Source: Micromonospora lupini (lineage in GTDB: Bacteria > Actinomycetota > Actinomycetes > Mycobacteriales > Micromonosporaceae). From it: a stretch of DNA of 64,000 nt. Of this stretch, positions 46,036 through 58,138 are shown piece after piece; the stretch's first letter is position 1, and the number at the start of each line of letters is the position of its first letter. Location: assembly GCF_026342015.1 (NCBI RefSeq), contig NZ_JAPENL010000002.1, forward strand, positions 1,059,001 through 1,123,000, read 5' to 3'. Below the pieces are notes generated by a model that worked only from the letters and a program-made list of their open reading frames with translations, made no database searches and was not told the DNA's origin. A program made the position numbers and the translations under genes.

Positions 46036-47709
46036 TCACTTGCCGACGCTTACCGTGTTGAATCGCTCGTCGGTAAGGGGGCTGGCCACCATGCCCTTGA
46101 CATCCTTGGTGACGACGATGGCCGGCGGGGCGTGCCAGAGCGGCACGGCCGGCAGCCACTTGGCGGCGATGTCCCGGTTGACCTGCTCCCAGGCCGCCTT
46201 CTTGCCAGCGTCGTCGACGGTGGCGTCGGCCTTGGTGATCGCCTCGAACATCTCGGTCATCGACTGGTCGCCGAACTCGACCTTGGCGCGGCCGAAGAAC
46301 GTGCCGACGAAGTTGCCCGGGTCGTTGTAGTCACCGGTCCAGCCGAGGATGTGCAGGTCCTGCTTGCCGAACTGCTGCACGTCGTCCTTGAAGCCACCGT
46401 TCCACGGGCGAGGCACACCGTTGACCTTGATGCCCACGGCCTGGAGGTCGTTGGCGAGGACGGTGAAGATCTCCTGCGGGTTCGGCATGTACGGCCGGGA
46501 GACGTCCGGCGGGTAGTAGAAGTTAAGCGTCAGACCCTCGGCGCCGGCGTCCTTGAGCAGCTGCTTGGCCTTGTCCGGGTTGTACTCGTACTTCTGCACG
46601 TCCGGGGCGTAGCCGAGCACGGTGTCCGGCATGAACTCGTCGGCGACCTTCGCGCCACCCGGGCCCTTGGTCTGCACCAGCTGCTGGCGGTTGAGCGCGT
46701 AGGCGATCGCCTGGCGCACCCGCAGGTCCTTGAGCTTCGGGTTCTTCTGGTTGAGGCCCAGGTAGAGGACGTTGAACGCCGGGCGGTTGATGACCTGGAA
46801 GCCCTCGCCCTCCAGCGCCTTGCGGTCGGCCGGGGCCGGGAAGTCGATGCCCTGGACCGTGCCGGCGCGGAGCTCCTGCTTACGGGTGCTCTCGTCCTTG
46901 ATGATCTTGATGATCACCTTGTCGACCTTGGCCTTGTCACCGAAGTAGTCCGGGTTCCGGTTCAGGGTGATCTCGTTCTTGGCCTTGTCCCAGCCACCGA
47001 AGGTGAACGGGCCGGTGCCGACCGGGTTGGTGGTGGCGAACGCGCTGTACTCGAACGAGTCGCCGTTCTGCTTCACCGTGTTGGCGTCGTACTTCTTCAG
47101 CGCCTCGGGGCTCGCGATCGACAGCGAGGTCAGCGCGAAGGCGCCGGGGAAGGCACCCTTGTACTTGTTCAGGGTCAGGACGGCGGTTCCGTCGTCCTTG
47201 GCCTCGCACTTGTTGTAGATCGACTCGCCGGCACCCTCGGCCTCGTTCTTGGCGAACCCGCCGAAGGTGTCCATGTAGTAGATCATCTGGGACTGGGCGG
47301 CAGCGCCCTTCATGTTGTACCAGCGGTCGAAGTTGAAGCAGACCGCGGCAGCGTTGAACGGGGTGCCGTCGTGGAACTTCACGCCCTGGCGCAGCTTGAA
47401 CGTCCAGACCTTGCCGTCCGGGTCGTGCTCCCAGCTCTCGGCCAGGCCGCCCTGCAGCTCCGCGGTGCCCGGCTTGTGGCTCACCAGGGTGTCGAACATC
47501 TGCCGGACCGGCCGGAACGACTCACCGTCGTCGTTGAAGATCGGATCGAAGTTCTTCGGGTCACCGGCACCCGCGAAGATGAAGGTGCCGCCAGTCTTGG
47601 CCTCGCCACTGTCGCCGTCGCGCTCGCTCTTCGCGCAGCCGGCCGCGCCGACCGCCAGAGCGGCAACGGCCGCGATGGCCACGGCCGCTTTAAGCCTTCT
47701 CGCCTGCAT
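46036..47709 (-). CDS. oppA: Oligopeptide-binding lipoprotein (family 5)
   Basis: 557 residues, ATG 47709 with AGAGGTGAGAG upstream. Lipobox LAVGAAGC (Cys 25), then family 5 features: DPKNFDPIFNDDGESFRPVR, YDTLVSHKPG-like LFDTL segment, AESWEHDPDGKVWTFKLRQG (highly typical), VKFHDGTPFNAAAV and LRDLRVRQAIAYALNRQQ. It binds peptides outside the membrane and delivers them to OppBC. The 229 bp upstream carry its promoter region; no operator identified. Confidence 0.94.
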   Translation of the reverse strand: MQARRLKAAVAIAAVAALAVGAAGCAKSERDGDSGEAKTGGTFIFAGAGDPKNFDPIFNDDGESFRPVRQMFDTLVSHKPGTAELQGGLAESWEHDPDGKVWTFKLRQGVKFHDGTPFNAAAVCFNFDRWYNMKGAAAQSQMIYYMDTFGGFAKNEAEGAGESIYNKCEAKDDGTAVLTLNKYKGAFPGAFALTSLSIASPEALKKYDANTVKQNGDSFEYSAFATTNPVGTGPFTFGGWDKAKNEITLNRNPDYFGDKAKVDKVIIKIIKDESTRKQELRAGTVQGIDFPAPADRKALEGEGFQVINRPAFNVLYLGLNQKNPKLKDLRVRQAIAYALNRQQLVQTKGPGGAKVADEFMPDTVLGYAPDVQKYEYNPDKAKQLLKDAGAEGLTLNFYYPPDVSRPYMPNPQEIFTVLANDLQAVGIKVNGVPRPWNGGFKDDVQQFGKQDLHILGWTGDYNDPGNFVGTFFGRAKVEFGDQSMTEMFEAITKADATVDDAGKKAAWEQVNRDIAAKWLPAVPLWHAPPAIVVTKDVKGMVASPLTDERFNTVSVGK

Positions 47710-48394: not shown

Positions 48395-48458
48395 CACTCG
48401 CCACCTCCAGAGGTACGCCGGTGGGCCCGCGCTCGTCACGCAGGCCCACCGGATCGAC

Positions 48459-51400
48459 TCAGTTGTATCCCACCGCCGACAATCGTGACGTCACGGCGTT
48501 GGCGTATGTCACCGCGCCCGTGTCCTTCGGGTGGAAGGAAGCCCGGCTGATGCAGACGTTCAAGCCTGCCGTGATCCAGCCGACGCAGTTCGCGTAGGTG
48601 TCGTCGGTGACCATCTGGAAGTCGCCCTCACCCTCCGGGCCGACGACCAGCGCATTGATGTCGTCAGGTACGAGGATGTCGTGGCTGGCGTCGTACTTGC
48701 GGCACGTCCCGTGGTCGAGCATGCCGTCCACCATGTCGGTGAATTGCACCTTCTTCCCGGCGGCGCGTGCCGAGTCCGCCATCGTCCGCTCCGCGTCCCG
48801 CATGTAGAGCGCCAGCCTGTTGATCATCGCCATCTCACCAGCGGTGTACCTGTTGAAGACGCACGAGTCCTGGTAGTAACTCGCGAAGATGCGGGGATAG
48901 CCGACCACCATGATGGTGGCGTTGGGCGCCTTCGTGGACACCGCGTTGATCAACTGACGCACCTCGAGCTGTGCGTTGTCGATCCGCTGCTGGACGGTCG
49001 CCTCGTAGGCCGCGGTGTCACAGGCATCCTCCGCGCACGTGCTCATCGTGAGAGGGAACTTGGCGTCGTTGCCGCCGGCCGAGAGCAGCACCAGGGTCGT
49101 GTTGCCGTCCAGCACGCCGGACTCGATCTGGGACATCTCCCGGAACTGCCCCTCCGCGTCGAACCCGTACCCGCCGATATCGTCGGGTGGGTCTTGCCAG
49201 TAGTAGGGCGTGCTCGTGCTGCCCATTTTTGCTGCCGTCGATCCGGAGCAGGTGACGTTCTGGAAGTCAAGACTCTGGTCGTGGCCGGCCAGCCGGCTGG
49301 AGATCGAACTCGACGAACCGGGAAGGCGGGTCAAGAGCGGCCAGGCCTTGGTGCTGCGGCGGCAGGCGTTCCACGCGTGGTTGCCGTAGTTGTTGTCCGT
49401 CTCGTAGTAGTAGCTGCCGACGCCCTCACCGGAGCCGTACGAGTCACCCATTGCCACCACGAAGTGCCGTGGCTTGGCGCTCAAGGGGACGAACGCGAGA
49501 GCGTCCCACGCGATGTCCTCGGTGCCGTTGCCGTCCTCGGTGATGTTGTTCAGCTCCACCGACTGAGCGCCCGCGTTGGAGAACTGGTAAGTCCCCAGAG
49601 TCACCCAGCGGTGTTCCTCGGTCCGCGTGGGGATGTACCGGGCCTTCTGCCCCGCCCCCGTGTTGATCACGTACTTCGCCTGCTGGGTGTGCGCGCCATG
49701 GTCGGGGATGTGCACCATGACCTTGGCCCAGCCGTTCAGCCGGGTGGTCGGCGTCCATCGCCCGGTGACCTTCTCTGGCGCCGCGTCGGACTTCTGGGTG
49801 TGCGCGTGCCAGAAGTGACCGCCGAACCCGCCACCGATCTGGTGGGTGTCCACCTTGCCGGGATAGATGGTCACGTTGTTCGGCCCGACACGGGAGGGAT
49901 AGCTGAACGAGAACTTCCCTGCCGGCGTGAAGTCCCGCTGGCAGCCCTGAGGGCCGAGTGGGACCGCGCTGTCGATGTCGTCGATGATCAGCGCGTTGCT
50001 CGGCAACCCGTCCCGACTGCACTGCGAATCGTAGATGCTGGATCCGTACGGACGGGGCTCGACGCTTGTGTACCGCCGGTTCTCCAGCCCACAGTTGATC
50101 GAGCAGTCCGTCCAGGTGACCGACGAGTGCCACCAACACTTCAGGTCGTCCCGGGTGCACGGGCCCGGCTCCTCCGTCGGATAGTCGCCCGGCACCTCCG
50201 ACGCGTTCGGGTCGCATTCGTTCTGGGCCGGCACACAGAAGGTGAACCGGGACGGCTGGGCGACGAGTTTGTTGCGCTCCTGCGCCGTGGCATACGTCGG
50301 ACTGTAGTTACCGGTCTCGTAGTTGTAGCGGCGCAGCGAGGTGTAGGCGAAGCCCATCACCCGCTCCGGATACGACCAGTGGTTCGGGTGCTTGGCATTG
50401 TCGTAACCGACCTGGTCGTCCACCGGAGGGTTGGCGCTCGGCACGTCCAACGGCTGGGTCAGGAACATCTTCCGGTCTGCCGGGAAGTTGGGGTTGGAGG
50501 GGTTGTTGGCCCAGCCCACCCCCCACGGCGCGGTGGGGCTCGCCGGGATCTGGTTGTAGAAACCGGTGTTGTACGCCCAGATGGCGAACCACCAGTTCTC
50601 GATGTACCTCGCGTCACCGTTGTTCGCGATCAGCCCGGAGTTTCGGGTCTGGTTCCACTTGTCCTGCAGAATCCGCAGACCGGCTGCGACGTTCACCGCG
50701 TAGTCCAGCGCCACCGCCTTCTGCTTCGTCGCGTCCCACTGGACGCCCGCGATCCACTGGTCGGTGTCGCTCTTCCGCATCCCGGAGGTCACCTGACCAA
50801 CGCCGTAGCCGCAGTCGGTCTTCGTCCAGTCGATCTTTGTGTAGTCCGGGTTCGCCAGATCCAGCCCGTAGTAGCCGAGGCTGGTCAGCGGATTCCCGGC
50901 CAGGCCGTCCACGACGTGGAAACTGGCCTGCCACAGGTTCGACTCCTGCGCGAGGATTCCCAGGAACACCTGCGCCGGCACGTTGCCTCCACCGGCGAGC
51001 GTCGTCGACGGGAACATTGCCTGCGGCGAGTAGGCCGGCAGGCCGTTGTTCGCCCAGTTGGCCGCCCGCTGGAAGGTCAACTGTCCACGTACCGCGAGGT
51101 CGGCAGCCCACTCCACCTGCTCACGGGTCGGCTGGTAGACCTGGATGGCCGGATCGTTGCGGCGTACCGCGCAGGAGCCGTCGAGGTCGTACGCGACGGT
51201 CTCCGGGCTCGGGTCGGCGAGCGTGGTCGTCTTTCCCGCCGCCCCGGCGGGCGCGGCCGTCTGCCCGCCGACCCCGCTCGGCGGCAGTACCGAGAAGGCG
51301 ACATCGCCTCCCGTACGCAGACGAGCCTTGATGTCGACCCGGTCCGTCTGCCCGTCGCTCGGCGCACCCGCGACCGACCCGGCGGCCTCCCGGCCAGTGA

Positions 51401-52445
51401 CGGCCCTGGTCAGCACCAGGTCGCCGGTGCGGGAGACGTCGCTGTCGGGTGGCGCGTCGATAGTGCTCCACCGCGAGGGCAGGCGCTTGCCCACGAGCCG
51501 ACCGCCGGCCCGGCCGCCCACGGCGAAGACTCGGCCTTCACCCCCGGCCCGCAGCTTGACGGTGCCCGTCGGGACAGTCGCCACCGGCACCAGCCGACCA
51601 CCGGCCATCCGGGCGAGATCGACCTCGTCTCCCCGGGCCACCTGGAGCGCAACGTCCCGGGGGCCGTCCGCCATCAACCGGAACGGGGATCCTCCGGTCC
51701 GCAGGGTTGCCCGGACCGCCCCTCGGCGGTCGAGGGTGAGCAGTGCGTCACCCTTGGCGGCGATGATGGCATCACCGACGGGGATGGCCGAGCTGAGCTG
51801 ACCCGGCTCCACCGTCTTCTGCACGGCGAGCGGCTTGCGGGTGTCGACGGTGGTCAGTACGGTCCGCGCCGCCGTGCCGGCTCGCGGCGATGCCGGTAGC
51901 TCCAGGCGGGACAGCACCGCCGTCTCCCCCGCCCCGCAACCGGGATTGTGATAGGCCAGGGAGTAGCGTTCGGGCAACGTGGTGACCGCGCCCGTGTCCA
52001 GGTCGACAACCGCCGCGAAGGCCCCCGCGTTGAGCATGTTCTCCCGGTTGGTGAATTCACGGGGTGCGTAGACCGCCACCGCGCGTCGACCGGAGCCGGT
52101 CAGGCAGACCTGCCCGATCCACTGGTCCGTCGGCAGGCCGCGTCCGCCGAGCGTGGCGGCCGTCCGCCAGTGGTACGCCTCCTTGGAGTCCGCCACCAGC
52201 ACGTGCAGGCCGGTCTCGTCGGACGAGGTGGTGACGACCCGGTCGGTGGAACGCTTCCAGGTGGCGCCGAGCCGTCGGTCGGGATCGAGGATGCGGTCCG
52301 GGTCGGCCGGCCGGCCCGGGTCGGCCGGCCGGTTGACGGAGGTCGTTCGGGAGGGGTCGACGGAGGCGGCCGAGGCCGCCTGTTGAGACGGGACCAGCGG
52401 TGTCAACACCGCGAGTCCCAGTAGGGGAGCGAGGAACCGACGCAC
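48459..52445 (-). CDS. Secreted fusion: transglycosylase-like, golvesin-like and SGNH hydrolase domains
   Basis: 1328 residues, start ATG 52445, signal peptide LAPLLGLAVLTPLVPSQQAAS. Residues 30-420 are a beta-rich region, maybe propeller-like (VVTTSSDETGLHVLVADSKE). About 435-700 resembles a soluble lytic transglycosylase: LGILAQESNLWQASFHVVDG (catalytic Glu about 498), DCGYGVGQVTSGM and WAYNTGFYNQ. About 895-990 resembles the golvesin/CBM-like domain (AKYVINTGAGQKARYI, WVTLGTYQFSNAG). About 995-1325 is an SGNH hydrolase with GDSYGSGEG, LLSAGGNDAK and a final SFHPKDTGA (Ser/Asn/Asp-His set). Probably acts on peptidoglycan and an ester-decorated polymer outside the cell. Confidence 0.8.
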   Translation of the reverse strand: MRRFLAPLLGLAVLTPLVPSQQAASAASVDPSRTTSVNRPADPGRPADPDRILDPDRRLGATWKRSTDRVVTTSSDETGLHVLVADSKEAYHWRTAATLGGRGLPTDQWIGQVCLTGSGRRAVAVYAPREFTNRENMLNAGAFAAVVDLDTGAVTTLPERYSLAYHNPGCGAGETAVLSRLELPASPRAGTAARTVLTTVDTRKPLAVQKTVEPGQLSSAIPVGDAIIAAKGDALLTLDRRGAVRATLRTGGSPFRLMADGPRDVALQVARGDEVDLARMAGGRLVPVATVPTGTVKLRAGGEGRVFAVGGRAGGRLVGKRLPSRWSTIDAPPDSDVSRTGDLVLTRAVTGREAAGSVAGAPSDGQTDRVDIKARLRTGGDVAFSVLPPSGVGGQTAAPAGAAGKTTTLADPSPETVAYDLDGSCAVRRNDPAIQVYQPTREQVEWAADLAVRGQLTFQRAANWANNGLPAYSPQAMFPSTTLAGGGNVPAQVFLGILAQESNLWQASFHVVDGLAGNPLTSLGYYGLDLANPDYTKIDWTKTDCGYGVGQVTSGMRKSDTDQWIAGVQWDATKQKAVALDYAVNVAAGLRILQDKWNQTRNSGLIANNGDARYIENWWFAIWAYNTGFYNQIPASPTAPWGVGWANNPSNPNFPADRKMFLTQPLDVPSANPPVDDQVGYDNAKHPNHWSYPERVMGFAYTSLRRYNYETGNYSPTYATAQERNKLVAQPSRFTFCVPAQNECDPNASEVPGDYPTEEPGPCTRDDLKCWWHSSVTWTDCSINCGLENRRYTSVEPRPYGSSIYDSQCSRDGLPSNALIIDDIDSAVPLGPQGCQRDFTPAGKFSFSYPSRVGPNNVTIYPGKVDTHQIGGGFGGHFWHAHTQKSDAAPEKVTGRWTPTTRLNGWAKVMVHIPDHGAHTQQAKYVINTGAGQKARYIPTRTEEHRWVTLGTYQFSNAGAQSVELNNITEDGNGTEDIAWDALAFVPLSAKPRHFVVAMGDSYGSGEGVGSYYYETDNNYGNHAWNACRRSTKAWPLLTRLPGSSSSISSRLAGHDQSLDFQNVTCSGSTAAKMGSTSTPYYWQDPPDDIGGYGFDAEGQFREMSQIESGVLDGNTTLVLLSAGGNDAKFPLTMSTCAEDACDTAAYEATVQQRIDNAQLEVRQLINAVSTKAPNATIMVVGYPRIFASYYQDSCVFNRYTAGEMAMINRLALYMRDAERTMADSARAAGKKVQFTDMVDGMLDHGTCRKYDASHDILVPDDINALVVGPEGEGDFQMVTDDTYANCVGWITAGLNVCISRASFHPKDTGAVTYANAVTSRLSAVGYN

Positions 52446-52550: not shown

Positions 52551-53144
52551 TCAGACCGCTCGACGGCCCTCGAAGGCCCGGCCCAGTGTGATCTCGTCGG
52601 CATACTCCAGGTCGCCCCCGACCGGCAGCCCGCTGGCCAGCCGGGTCACCGCGATGCCCATCGGCTTCACCATCAGCGCCAGATAGGTGGCGGTCGCCTC
52701 GCCCTCGGTGTTCGGGTCGGTCGCCAGGATCAGCTCCCGGACCGCGCCGCCGCTCAACCGGGTCATCAGCTCCCGGATGCGCAGGTTGTCCGGGCCGATC
52801 CCCTCCAGCGGATTGATCGCGCCGCCGAGCACGTGGTAGCGACCGCGGAACTCACCTGTCCGCTCGATGGCCACCACGTCCTTGGGCTCCTCCACCACGC
52901 ACAGCACCTCGTCGGTGCGGCGCTGGTCGCGGCAGATCCGGCACTGCTCGGACTCGGCCACGTTGTAACAGGTCGTGCAGAAGCGCACCAGCTCCTTGAC
53001 CTTGCGCAGCGCGCCGGCCAGCCGGGTGACGTCGGCCGGGTCGGCCGACAGGACGTGGAACGCGATCCGCTGTGCGCTCTTCGGGCCTACGCCCGGCAGT
53101 CGCCCCAGCTCGTCGATCAGATCCTGGATGGCGCCCTCGTACAT
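52551..53144 (-). CDS. recR: Recombination protein RecR
   Basis: 197 residues. N-terminal Hh[21 protein letters not shown], zinc finger [16 protein letters not shown], Toprim domain [19 protein letters not shown] and C-terminal [19 protein letters not shown]. It works with RecO/RecF in loading RecA at gaps. It lies 8 bp after ybaB; dnaX-ybaB-recR is a classical cluster, here interrupted by one gene. Confidence 0.96.
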
Positions 53145-54442: not shown

Positions 54443-57400
54443 CTAGCGGGCGTCGACCTCGTCGATCTTCTCGGCCCCGAAGGTATCGCGCAGCAGCCGT
54501 ACCGCCTGCTCCTCGCTCGACTCCCGGGCGGTCTTCTCGTCGATGACCTCGTCCAACGGCTCGTCGCCCGGGTCGAACCCCTCGTAGGTTGGGGTCGCCG
54601 CCGGTGCCGCGCCACCCGGCCGTCCGCCACGCTGCGGGCCGTCGAAGTCCGGGTCGTAGGGAGGTTCGCCGGCCCACTCGGCGTCCGCGACGGGCCGGGC
54701 AGCCGATGCGGTACGCGGACCGCGTCCCGCCGCCGCCGCGCGAGCCGCGGCGATGGCGCTGCTCACCGGGGCGCCACCGGCTGTCGCCGGCTGCCGGGCC
54801 GCCGGTGTCGGGTTGGCCGCCCGCGCGTCCGGCCTACCGGTCGTCGAACCTGTGCCACCTGGACTGCCGCCGTTGGAGCCATGGGAGCCGTTGGCCGCAC
54901 CGGGGCCGGCAGGGCCGCCAGCACCGTTCGTGCTGAGCGGCACGGGTGCTGAGCCGGAATCGCCAGGGACACCGTTGCCCGTGGCGGCGCCGCCGGGTCG
55001 GGCGGCTTCCGGCCAGTCCTCGTCATCCGTGGCTGGGGCATCCGTGGCCGGGGCAGGAGCGTTGCCGCCGGGACGGGCCGCCTCCGGCCAGTCGTCCTCA
55101 TCGGCAGCCGACTCGGCGGGCTGCCCGCCGCCCTGGTTTCCAACACCGTGACCGGTCGATCCGTCCGCACCGACACCGCCACGCGAACCCGGGCCGGCAG
55201 TACCTGCCGAGTTCGCTCCGGTGAACGCTGCGTTCGTCGGGCCGGCGGCGGTAGGCGCGTTCGCCGAGACGTGCGTGGTCGACGCGCCGCCCGTCGGCCC
55301 GGCACCCGGCGCAGCGGCGTGCACGGTCGACGCGCCGCCCGTCGGCCCGGCACCCGGCGCAGCGGCGTGCACGGTCGACGCGCCGCCCGTCGGCCCGGCA
55401 CCCGGCGCAGCGGCGTGCGCGTTCGACGCGGGCGGGGCGCCCGTCGGCCCGGCACTCGGCGCAGCGGCGTGCACGGTCGACGCGCCGCCCGTCGGCCCGG
55501 CACCCGGCGCAGCGGCGTGCACGGTCGACGCGCCGCCCGCCGGCCCGGCACCCGGCGCAGCGGCGTGCACGGTCGACGCGCCGCCCGCCGGCCCGGCACC
55601 CGGCGCAGCGGCGTGCACGGTCGACGCGCCGCCCGCCGGCCCGGCACCCGGCGCAGCGGCGTGCACGGTCGACGCGCCGCCCGCCGGCCCAGCACTCGGC
55701 GCAGCGGCGTGCGCGTTCGACGCGGGCGGGGCGCTCGTCGGCCCGGCAGCGGGCGCGTTCGGTGGGTTGGACGGCGAGGCCGCCACGGTCGGCGCCGCTG
55801 GGCGGGGCGGCGAGGCCGGCTGCGAGCGCGGCTGGCCGGACAGCGACACGCCACCCCGCTCGCCGGCCACCTCGCAGCGGATCTGCCAGCGTCCGCCCAA
55901 CTCCTCGTAGAGCGCGTCGGTCAGCACCGCCGCGTGGTCGGCCATCATCTTGGCCAGCACTGTGGACTTCACCGTCAGCACCAGCATGTCGCCGTCGAGT
56001 TCCCGCACGACCGCGTCGCGCATGAGGGCGGCGATCCGCTTGTTGGTCCGGTTGACCTTGCCGACCACGTCGGGCCAGACCCGGCGGACCGCTACCGCGT
56101 CCAGTGCGGCGGCCGGCGCTCCGGGGCGGGGCGGCACGGGTGTCGCCGGGTCGGGCAGCACCGCCGACGGCGGCACCACGCGACGCGGGGCCGGCGAGCC
56201 GGTGCCCGGTCCGGCGGGCGAGACGGGTGCGGCCGGGTCAGCGGAGGTAGACGCCGACGCGCCGGGCGATCCCGGAATCGGTGAGTCGGCCCCCGAGGGG
56301 GCATACGAGCCCGGTGCGCCCGTGGCACGAGCCCCCGAGCCCGCAGCGCCCGAACCGGCAGCGCCCGAGCCGGCAGCGCCCGAGCCGGCAGCGCCCGAAC
56401 CGGCAGCGCCCGAACCGGCAGCGCCCGAACCGGCAGCGCCCGAACCGGCAGCACTCGAACCGGCAGCGCCCGAACCCACAGCGGCCAAGCCAGCGACGCC
56501 CAAGCCCGCAACGCCCGAACCGGCAGCGCCCGAACCCACAGCACCCGAACCCACAGCACCCGAACCTGCAGCACCCGAACCTGCAGCGCCCGAGGCGGTT
56601 GGGCCCGCAGCGCCTGTGGACCGCGTGCCCGGGGTCGGGGACGCGGTCGGGTCGACGTCCCACGGCGGTGCGGAGGTCGGGGCGTCGGCGGGTGCCGGGG
56701 TGGCGGCAGCCGGGACGGGAGGGGCGTGCTGTGGGCGTACTCCTGGGTGGGCCGCTGGCGCGGAGCCGGCGGCAGCCGACGGCGCGTCGGTGCCGCTCAG
56801 GGTGAGCCGGCGTTCCATCCGTTCGAGGCGCTGGAGCAGGCCGCCTGTGGAGTCGTCCACGCCGGGCAGCAGCATCCGGGCGCAGATCAGCTCCAGCAAC
56901 AGGCGGGGCGCGGTGGTGCCGCGCATCTCGACCAGGCCGTCGTGCACGATGTCCGCGCAGCGGGAGAGCGTGGCCGGGCCGAGCTGCGAAGCCTGGGCGG
57001 CCATCCGCTCGATCTGGTCGGCGGGGCCGTCGATGAGGCCCTTCGCGGCGGCGTCCGGCACCTGCTGGATCACGATGAGGTCGCGCAGCCGTTCCAGCAG
57101 GTCCGACGCGAACCGGCGCGGGTCGTGCCCGGCCTCGGCGACCCGGTCGACGGTGCCGTACGCGGCGGCGCCGTCACCGGCGGCCAGCGCGTCGCACATC
57201 TCGTCGATGAGCGCGGCGTCGGTGACCCCGAGCAGCGCGGCGGCCCGTGCGTAGCTCACGCCCTCCGGGCCGGCGCCGGCGATGAGCTGGTCGAGCACGG
57301 AGAGGCTGTCCCGGGCGCTACCGCCACCGGCGCGGACCACCAGGGGGAAGACCGCCGGCTCGACGGCGACGCCCTCGGCCTGGGTGAGCTGCTCCAGGTA

Positions 57401-57958
57401 CGGGCGGAGGACCTTCGGCGGGATCAGTCGGAACGGGTAGTGGTGGGTCCGCGACCGGATCGTGCCGAGGACCTTCTCCGGCTCGGTGGTGGCGAAGATG
57501 AACTTGACGTACTCCGGGGGCTCCTCGACGAGCTTGAGCAGGGCGTTGAAGCCCTGGGTCGAGACCATGTGCGCCTCGTCGATCACGTAGATCTTGAAGC
57601 GGCTGCTGGCCGGCGCGAAGAACGCGCGCTCCCGCAGCTCCCGGGCGTCGTCGACACCGCCGTGGCTGGCCGCGTCGATCTCGATCACGTCGATCGAACC
57701 GGCGCCGTCGATGGCAAGCGAGCGGCACGACTCACACTTGCCGCACGGCTCCGGGGTGGGGCCCTGCTCACAGTTGAGCGAGCGGGCCAGGATCCGGGCG
57801 CTGGAGGTCTTGCCGCAGCCACGGGGGCCGGAGAAGAGGTAGGCGTGGTTGAGCCGCCCGCTGCGCAGCGCCTGCGACAACGGCTCGGTGACGTGCTCCT
57901 GCCCGATGACCTCGGCGAAGGTACGCGGCCGGTACTTGCGGTAGAGCGCCAGCGTCAC
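54443..57958 (-). CDS. dnaX: DNA polymerase III gamma/tau subunit with repeat-expanded linkers
   Basis: Start GTG 57958, with GAGGAGGCGGG before it; 1171 residues, against about 600-850 in most Actinobacteria. Clamp-loader ATPase: Walker A SGPRGCGKTS (43-52), zinc cysteines C63/C72/C75/C78, Walker B VIDEAH (DEAH 127-130), SRC-equivalent RSRTHHYPFRL. Domain III follows to about 390. The rest is mostly low-complexity: a GAAGS repeat (453-543) and a 16-residue repeat (738-898), between which lies a folded domain (ALDAVAVRRVWPDVVGKVN..., 616-703) equivalent to the tau C-terminal domain. The gene lies next to ffs as in many Actinobacteria. Confidence 0.93.
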   Translation of the reverse strand: MTLALYRKYRPRTFAEVIGQEHVTEPLSQALRSGRLNHAYLFSGPRGCGKTSSARILARSLNCEQGPTPEPCGKCESCRSLAIDGAGSIDVIEIDAASHGGVDDARELRERAFFAPASSRFKIYVIDEAHMVSTQGFNALLKLVEEPPEYVKFIFATTEPEKVLGTIRSRTHHYPFRLIPPKVLRPYLEQLTQAEGVAVEPAVFPLVVRAGGGSARDSLSVLDQLIAGAGPEGVSYARAAALLGVTDAALIDEMCDALAAGDGAAAYGTVDRVAEAGHDPRRFASDLLERLRDLIVIQQVPDAAAKGLIDGPADQIERMAAQASQLGPATLSRCADIVHDGLVEMRGTTAPRLLLELICARMLLPGVDDSTGGLLQRLERMERRLTLSGTDAPSAAAGSAPAAHPGVRPQHAPPVPAAATPAPADAPTSAPPWDVDPTASPTPGTRSTGAAGPTASGAAGSGAAGSGAVGSGAVGSGAAGSGVAGLGVAGLAAVGSGAAGSSAAGSGAAGSGAAGSGAAGSGAAGSGAAGSGAAGSGAAGSGARATGAPGSYAPSGADSPIPGSPGASASTSADPAAPVSPAGPGTGSPAPRRVVPPSAVLPDPATPVPPRPGAPAAALDAVAVRRVWPDVVGKVNRTNKRIAALMRDAVVRELDGDMLVLTVKSTVLAKMMADHAAVLTDALYEELGGRWQIRCEVAGERGGVSLSGQPRSQPASPPRPAAPTVAASPSNPPNAPAAGPTSAPPASNAHAAAPSAGPAGGASTVHAAAPGAGPAGGASTVHAAAPGAGPAGGASTVHAAAPGAGPAGGASTVHAAAPGAGPTGGASTVHAAAPSAGPTGAPPASNAHAAAPGAGPTGGASTVHAAAPGAGPTGGASTVHAAAPGAGPTGGASTTHVSANAPTAAGPTNAAFTGANSAGTAGPGSRGGVGADGSTGHGVGNQGGGQPAESAADEDDWPEAARPGGNAPAPATDAPATDDEDWPEAARPGGAATGNGVPGDSGSAPVPLSTNGAGGPAGPGAANGSHGSNGGSPGGTGSTTGRPDARAANPTPAARQPATAGGAPVSSAIAAARAAAAGRGPRTASAARPVADAEWAGEPPYDPDFDGPQRGGRPGGAAPAATPTYEGFDPGDEPLDEVIDEKTARESSEEQAVRLLRDTFGAEKIDEVDAR
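55264..55745. repeat. 48-bp tandem repeat in dnaX
   Basis: Nine tandem units encode AGPAGGASTVHAAAPG-like 16-residue blocks (48 bp). Unit 6 and a degenerate unit 0 carry APPASNAH instead of GGASTVH, so there is a higher-order pattern. Several adjacent units are nearly identical in DNA, which points to recent slippage or unequal exchange. Confidence 0.9.
56326..56605. repeat. 15-bp tandem repeat in dnaX
   Basis: About 17 five-residue units, mostly GAAGS with GAVGS and GVAGL variants, encoded by 15-bp units. Seven identical GAAGS blocks lie together near 56330-56450. Such a run is likely to vary in copy number between strains. Confidence 0.9.
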
Positions 57959-58051
57959 TCGTCCCGCCTCCTCTCGACCGAGCCATTCTGCGCCGGTCGG
58001 GCGCGGCTGACCACCCACCCCGCCGGGCAGCCCGGGTTGCTGCGGGTTGCC

Positions 58052-58138
58052 GCGCTTGATCGACTCCACCTCGGCGACGTGGCGGTATCCACGGCCCAGA
58101 ACAGCCCCACATCGGCGACCTGGAGTGGATCAAGGCGC
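58052..58138. repeat. GATC-type inverted repeat (copy F)
   Basis: Arms at 58052-58082 and 58107-58138 with about six mismatches or bulges. The outer ends are GCGCTTGATC and GATCAAGGCGC. It lies between ffs and dnaX, just after the ffs 3' T-run, so it may end the SRP RNA transcript or separate it from dnaX. Confidence 0.55.

Follow-up and report, generated by a model that had tools for sequence, protein, structure and literature searches.

What might a bacterium gain from exporting a single chain in which a wall-cutting domain, a binding domain and a hydrolase appear to be joined? The question is raised by the gene P0001, found on the reverse strand of a 64,000-nucleotide stretch of the Micromonospora lupini genome (contig NZ_JAPENL010000002.1, positions 1,059,001 to 1,123,000; the whole stretch is called the window, and coordinates are counted from its first letter). 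A first-pass annotation, made from the letters alone, read the product as a 1328-residue fusion of lytic-transglycosylase-like, golvesin-like and SGNH esterase parts, and proposed that it remodels the wall by cleaving peptidoglycan and removing ester groups from it. The fusion is indeed there, in an intact open reading frame (ORF), but the proposed function gives way to another: P0001 is probably a lipase-armed, exported polymorphic toxin, and the protein encoded next downstream its candidate immunity protein, as judged from domain anatomy and from the genes that accompany its relatives. The parts of the system are as follows.

48459..52445, reverse strand: P0001, GTG start, 1328 amino acids, intact ORF matched by relatives over its whole length
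52362..52445, reverse strand: putative export signal, residues 1-28 (RR, hydrophobic core and Ala-x-Ala, read by eye)
51285..52247, reverse strand: beta-propeller, residues ~67-387 (predicted model, fold match to 2gop)
50166..51173, reverse strand: lytic-transglycosylase (SLT/GH23)-like domain, residues ~425-760 (Pfam SLT in family members, invariant motifs)
50943..50945, reverse strand: predicted catalytic Glu501 (alignment of 62 members)
49530..49781, reverse strand: Golvesin_C domain, residues 889-972, in a jelly roll of residues ~814-989 (Pfam, fold match to 6f2p)
48462..49478, reverse strand: SGNH domain, residues ~990-1328, phospholipase A1/lipase-like (sequence and fold matches)
49440..49442, reverse strand: predicted catalytic Ser1002 (alignment of 62 members)
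49068..49070, reverse strand: Asn1126 of the SGNH block (alignment of 62 members)
48531..48533, reverse strand: predicted catalytic His1305, with Ser1303 at His-2 (compare the dyad of Streptomyces albidoflavus phospholipase A1, SaPLA1, in the consulted part of PMC10779480)
47939..48439, reverse strand: candidate immunity protein, 166 amino acids, 19 base pairs from the stop of P0001 (61 if its start is at 48397)

The first line of evidence is that the N-terminal body of P0001, which we call the chassis, occurs in many genes with unrelated C-terminal ends, or payloads. At least 551 stretches of public genomes encode a chassis relative. The 79 loci retained come from Micromonospora, Streptomyces, Amycolatopsis, Lentzea, Nonomuraea and other genera; in one further genus (Streptomyces, as far as can be deduced) 37 of 150 genomes match residues 421-993 at E<=1e-20, with two candidates scored per genome in the alignment search. 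Thirty-nine plasmid records match as well, 20 of them covering at least 80% of the query, and the genome of M. lupini itself has four chassis copies, two bearing SGNH payloads and two ending after the golvesin domain. Payloads were classified by a script, from tail length and motif, in 160 ORFs (156 distinct genes) representing the best 80 of the at least 551 stretches by score together with second-genus members chosen for unusual length, a biased sample whose class counts are not frequencies. SGNH payloads were found in 103 ORFs, NucA/NucB-type nucleases in 13, a module of ~430 residues with no assignment in 11, RHS repeats with differing tips in three, SGNH plus nuclease in two, and other tails in four. 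The nuclease class is defined by the motif CDE[FY]xFA and by Pfam matches of three tails, of which that of L045 exceeds the cut-off and those of L185 (E 9e-5) and L191 (E 0.07) fall short of it; the nucleases of the two double tails, NucA/NucB and GmrSD_C, both score above cut-off. Two of the four other ORFs have lectin-like tails, that of L063 falling below the Pfam cut-offs, and the remaining two are one gene, counted twice, with a frame-broken ~430-residue module. In L210/L160 (G186) a frame change interrupts the ~430-residue payload, the remainder of which lies in another frame with an overlap of a few bases. The module itself, 430-450 residues long in L183, L184, L197-L200 and L206, has no Pfam match in the three tails scanned (L183, L200, L206), and in three of the 11 members that carry it the next gene encodes a protein of 61-79 residues with two transmembrane segments.

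Exchange of these ends is seen directly in closely related chassis. The regions from transglycosylase-like to golvesin domain are 77% identical in two genes of which one ends in SGNH and the other in the ~430-residue module, and are up to 72% identical between SGNH and NucA/NucB-type members; the RHS-bearing chassis share no more than 47% identity with those of the other classes, which speaks against a recent swap in their case. A constant N-terminal body joined to non-homologous C-terminal domains is the arrangement expected of polymorphic toxins. Payload-free chassis genes lie near payload-bearing ones at L040, L041, L042, L061, L096, L103 and L104, an arrangement suggestive of pairing or of a reservoir on which exchange could draw; in five of ten annotated plasmid regions (L216, L219, L220, L221, L224) the chassis gene is preceded by genes for a sigma factor, a CU044_5270 family protein and a peptidase inhibitor I36.

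The second line is a neighbor that follows the payload. Near its N-terminus the downstream protein of P0001 has a single stretch of strong hydrophobicity (hydropathy 2.48 at residue 29), together with a predicted extracytoplasmic domain with two conserved cysteines; genes were called with a custom codon-usage script and transmembrane segments with a simple hydropathy cut-off. No Pfam family covers this partner, and its 23 scanned members gave ten weak matches, each in one member. Searched against the 22,294 ORFs of all loci collected, the partner profile gives 60 matches. Fifty-nine of them (50 distinct genes) come immediately after an SGNH-type chassis gene; the one exception is L100 (E 7e-4). 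Matches are absent next to every other payload class (0/54) and from 21 loci of stand-alone SGNH esterases. Among the 105 SGNH members with room for a downstream gene, 44 have a partner of this type (type A) and 12 one of a multi-spanning type B, so that an adjacent candidate immunity gene tracks the payload, by linkage, in about half of them. The seeds of the profile were genes found downstream of SGNH members; when seeds are set aside the partner is found with 21 of 82 SGNH members versus 0 of 54 others (Fisher p 1e-5), a count that still contains close relatives of the seeds. The M. lupini genome as a whole has exactly two partner matches, each beside one of its two SGNH chassis genes, and in nine of the ten annotated plasmid regions a small hypothetical gene on the same strand comes next downstream. 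The partner is also the fastest-diverging part of the system: in 39 close SGNH pairs mean identity is 88% for the transglycosylase-golvesin region, 81% for SGNH, 76% for the propeller and 61% for the partner, and in one single comparison chassis are 79%, payloads 46% and partners 18% identical.

Nuclease-bearing members have a different neighbor. Nine of the 12 NucA/NucB-type members with room face a gene of the SUKH-1 (SMI1/KNR4) family within 204 base pairs, and a tenth has a SUKH gene at 1.2 kb. Pfam assigns SUKH-1 to seven of eight neighbors scanned (from 13 nuclease-class rows) at E<=0.0014, four of them over the cut-off, and DUF6461 to the eighth. A profile built from eight neighbors gives 11 matches in the same 22,294 ORFs; those at the nuclease members L193 and L196 are independent of the seeds, and the eleventh, a weak one, stands by L200, a member with the ~430-residue module. 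ComI, the competence nuclease, is presumably NucA of the Pfam family. SUKH is described as one of the families that give immunity to nuclease toxins, ComI included, and Tox-ComI is listed with both Imm-ComJ and Imm-SUKH (consulted passages of Zhang et al. 2012, PMC3482391).

The third line is the fate of the partner where the chassis has been lost. The insertion site of P0001 and its partner is bounded by two genes named from their own sequences.

52551..53144, reverse strand: recR, upstream boundary
46036..47709, reverse strand: gene of an ABC-type substrate-binding protein, downstream boundary

The site was compared in 20 of 22 same-genus relatives (all except G010 and G016): two have chassis and partner, 17 have neither, and one, G005, has an intact partner next to a chassis reduced to a 5' remnant. 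The G005 partner has omega values of 0.29-0.35 against its three closest partners, like those of functional pairs. At a second site, G018 retains a 74% identical partner with no chassis, and G020, with the same two flanks, has a payload-free chassis in addition to an SGNH chassis and the partner; G033 matches at the upstream flank too and has the genes of G020. Whole-genome search found no chassis in either G005 or G018. Two Micromonospora genomes thus hold orphan copies of a gene whose immunity function is predicted, and a partner that outlives its toxin is expected of an immunity gene, not of a folding aid. Further weak partner-like genes, L281 (G037), L282 (G022) and L283 (G021), with E-values of 3e-8 to 3e-5, lie in genomes in which no chassis was found and are possibly additional orphans.

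This last point bears on an unlikely competitor, according to which P0001 is a secreted scavenging or wall-turnover enzyme and its downstream neighbor encodes a Lif-like lipase foldase anchored in the membrane, or another accessory factor. Gram-negative lipase-foldase operons, in which a membrane-anchored chaperone is encoded downstream of the enzyme, are a precedent; lectin-like and payload-free versions of the chassis would suit nutrition or wall turnover, and about half of the SGNH members are found without a recognised partner. Against this, none of the 23 partner members matches a lipase-chaperone family at E<=0.1, stand-alone SGNH esterases do without the partner, NucA/NucB-type versions have SUKH in its place, and orphans persist where the chassis is lost. 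A role of the partner as a general lipase foldase was rejected, given its absence from stand-alone enzymes and the persistence of the orphans.

We regard as very improbable a role as a self-directed lysis factor that serves development or programmed cell death and is held back for a time by the partner. Lytic cell death does occur in mycelial actinomycetes, and nuclease, phospholipase and transglycosylase activities would be suited to dismantling a cell; the patchy presence at the recR site and the location of chassis genes on plasmids nevertheless count against it, and exchange of payloads is not what a house-keeping programme would lead one to expect.

What, then, does the SGNH payload do? 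Pfam places it slightly under the cut-off of Lipase_GDSL_2 (30.2 bits versus 32.9), and its sequence matches in PDB are S. albidoflavus phospholipase A1 (4hyq, E 4e-10) and Streptomyces rimosus lipase (SrL, 5mal). The model of the domain superposes on the phospholipase with Z 28.6 and 1.8 A, 233 of 236 residues being aligned, and it superposes on the S. rimosus lipase as well. The annotation had asked whether the SGNH site, with a serine near 1000, might prove broken; it is intact, with Ser1002, Asn1126 and His1305 identical in 62 of 62 aligned members, and the residue at 1303, two before the histidine, is Ser in 53 of the 62. SaPLA1 and SrL have a Ser-His dyad with a Ser likewise two residues ahead of the His (consulted part of PMC10779480), so that fold and predicted dyad are common to all three; the two enzymes differ from P0001 in being single-domain proteins, and their stand-alone relatives in the searched genomes have no partner. 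The payload is closest, by far, to phospholipase A1/lipase, which is its predicted activity. The function first proposed, in which peptidoglycan would be cleaved and its O-acetyl groups or other esters taken off, is very improbable. Peptidoglycan O-acetylesterases give weak Foldseek matches (8gkd, E 5e-8), far under that of the phospholipase; the 50 matches listed in two VIA lists, filled by the propeller and the SGNH domain, include none of them. The same chassis bears nucleases and RHS repeats, and many of its genes have payload-specific immunity-like partners; O-deacetylation was rejected as the main role on the fold evidence.

The rest of the chain was examined in the same manner. P0001 aligns with three relatives from residue 1 or 9 through to residue 1328, with 72-74% identity, and two alignment-based AlphaFold2 models span residues 421-1328 (mean pLDDT 90.5) and 58-993 (88.8), the first 57 residues lying outside both. 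The N-terminal region of some 400 residues that the annotation left blank turns out to be modelled as a beta-propeller similar to 2gop (VIA Z 14.8, 253 residues, 3.9 A). The golvesin-type reading holds well, with Golvesin_C scoring 47.2 bits against a cut-off of 31.6, and the surrounding jelly roll resembles the C-terminal part of xanthan lyase 6f2p (VIA Z 14.6, 134 residues, 2.9 A). The transglycosylase-like domain is a more delicate matter. Glu501 (predicted near 498 by the annotation), Gly546-Tyr547-Gly548, Gln551, Trp623, Tyr625-Asn626 and Gly628 are invariant in 62 of 62 aligned members, so that the Glu, GxxxxQ and YN-G motifs of SLT/GH23 are all present in the correct order, and Pfam SLT is found at E<=0.01 in 22 of 32 scanned members (best 5.5e-7); P0001 itself stays under the SLT cut-off of 21.3, with 16.2 bits for the whole chain and 19.7 for the domain slice. 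The 50 matches listed in two VIA fold lists are taken up by propeller and SGNH folds and include no transglycosylase. P0001 has no match in NCBIfam, PHROGs or PADLOC. A search of phage records with residues 421-993 found nothing matching, and a phage origin of the chassis gene was rejected on that ground; a viral fold library gave mostly propeller-like matches to the model.

Several observations weigh against a toxin with a dedicated immunity protein. As many as 49 of the 105 SGNH members with room have a partner of neither type, and 20 of 83 have no nearby ORF on the same strand, as counted with a crude gene caller. No payload at all is found in 24 of the 160 chassis ORFs. Although it outpaces the transglycosylase-golvesin region, the SGNH payload diverges at about the rate of the propeller. 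SUKH genes are convergent with the chassis rather than co-directional. The G005 orphan has omega values of 0.70-0.71 against two distant partners, where functional pairs have 0.47-0.58, and is possibly under relaxed selection. For nuclease payloads, no route into the cytoplasm is apparent. Finally, a profile of the transglycosylase slice found no chain in PDB, and hhalign against ten SLT domains of relatives reached a P of only 0.05, albeit with the motifs aligned in order; we therefore hold the identity of residues ~425-760 with moderate confidence, and toxicity itself is predicted from anatomy and linkage.

With these points counted, the polymorphic-toxin reading remains the one that we prefer. 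By anatomy and linkage the system works like those surveyed by Zhang et al. 2012 (PMC3482391), with a constant N-terminus, interchangeable C-terminal toxins (RHS carriers among them) and adjacent immunity genes; exchange of modules, linked partners and orphans are all observed here, and toxicity and its neutralisation are predicted. The terms SGNH, GDSL and transglycosylase are absent from the 300,000 of 354,187 characters of that paper's main text that were covered. Toxin plus outward-facing membrane guard is the simplest account, and a parallel can be drawn with TslA, the type VII phospholipase toxin of Staphylococcus aureus, and TilA, its lipoprotein immunity protein (PMC10730906, consulted in part): there, as predicted here, a phospholipase A toxin acts extracellularly and is neutralised by a membrane-tethered extracellular protein. 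TslA differs in being a type VII substrate, in its helical targeting domain and in its reverse arrangement, and the consulted text mentions no wall-cutting domain and does not contain SGNH or GDSL. The umbrella toxins of Streptomyces, by their description, are likewise secreted polymorphic toxins of actinomycetes, but they take the form of particles in which toxin domains are joined by a set of lectins. On the reading preferred here, the export signal would take P0001 out of the cell; its propeller, transglycosylase-like domain and golvesin-type jelly roll would bind and cut the wall of a competitor; the SGNH payload would then hydrolyse membrane phospholipids via the Ser1002-His1305 dyad; and the producer would be guarded by the membrane-anchored protein encoded 19 base pairs downstream, facing outward and blocking the payload.

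Elsewhere in the window, a DnaX-like gene (54443-58069, reverse strand; named from its sequence) has long Ala/Gly/Pro-rich low-complexity repeats in the C-terminal half, with units GAAGS and HAAAPGAGPTGGAS.

Literature searches found nothing that combines golvesin with transglycosylase, and the golvesin titles listed include none on a propeller-transglycosylase-golvesin chassis; the title listed for polymorphic toxins with transglycosylase and GDSL is not relevant. No description of the chassis, of an SGNH polymorphic-toxin payload of this kind or of the partner families was found in the literature searched, judging from such listings and from passages. We lean, with some reserve, towards an undescribed class of self-sufficient polymorphic toxins of multicellular actinomycetes, which would bring their own wall-binding and wall-cutting parts and a modular warhead (lipase, nuclease or RHS with tips), would need general export only, and would be paired with immunity proteins, anchored in the membrane, of two new families. 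Plasmid copies at present bear the name 'SGNH/GDSL hydrolase family protein' or 'GDSL-type esterase/lipase family protein', or are entered as hypothetical. If they are toxins, hundreds of genes would be re-annotated, many of them with a ready candidate antidote alongside; the passage of large secreted toxins through the thick Gram-positive wall would become testable; and actinomycetes would possess a widespread protein weapon that unites, in one chain, a wall cutter with a phospholipase or a nuclease.

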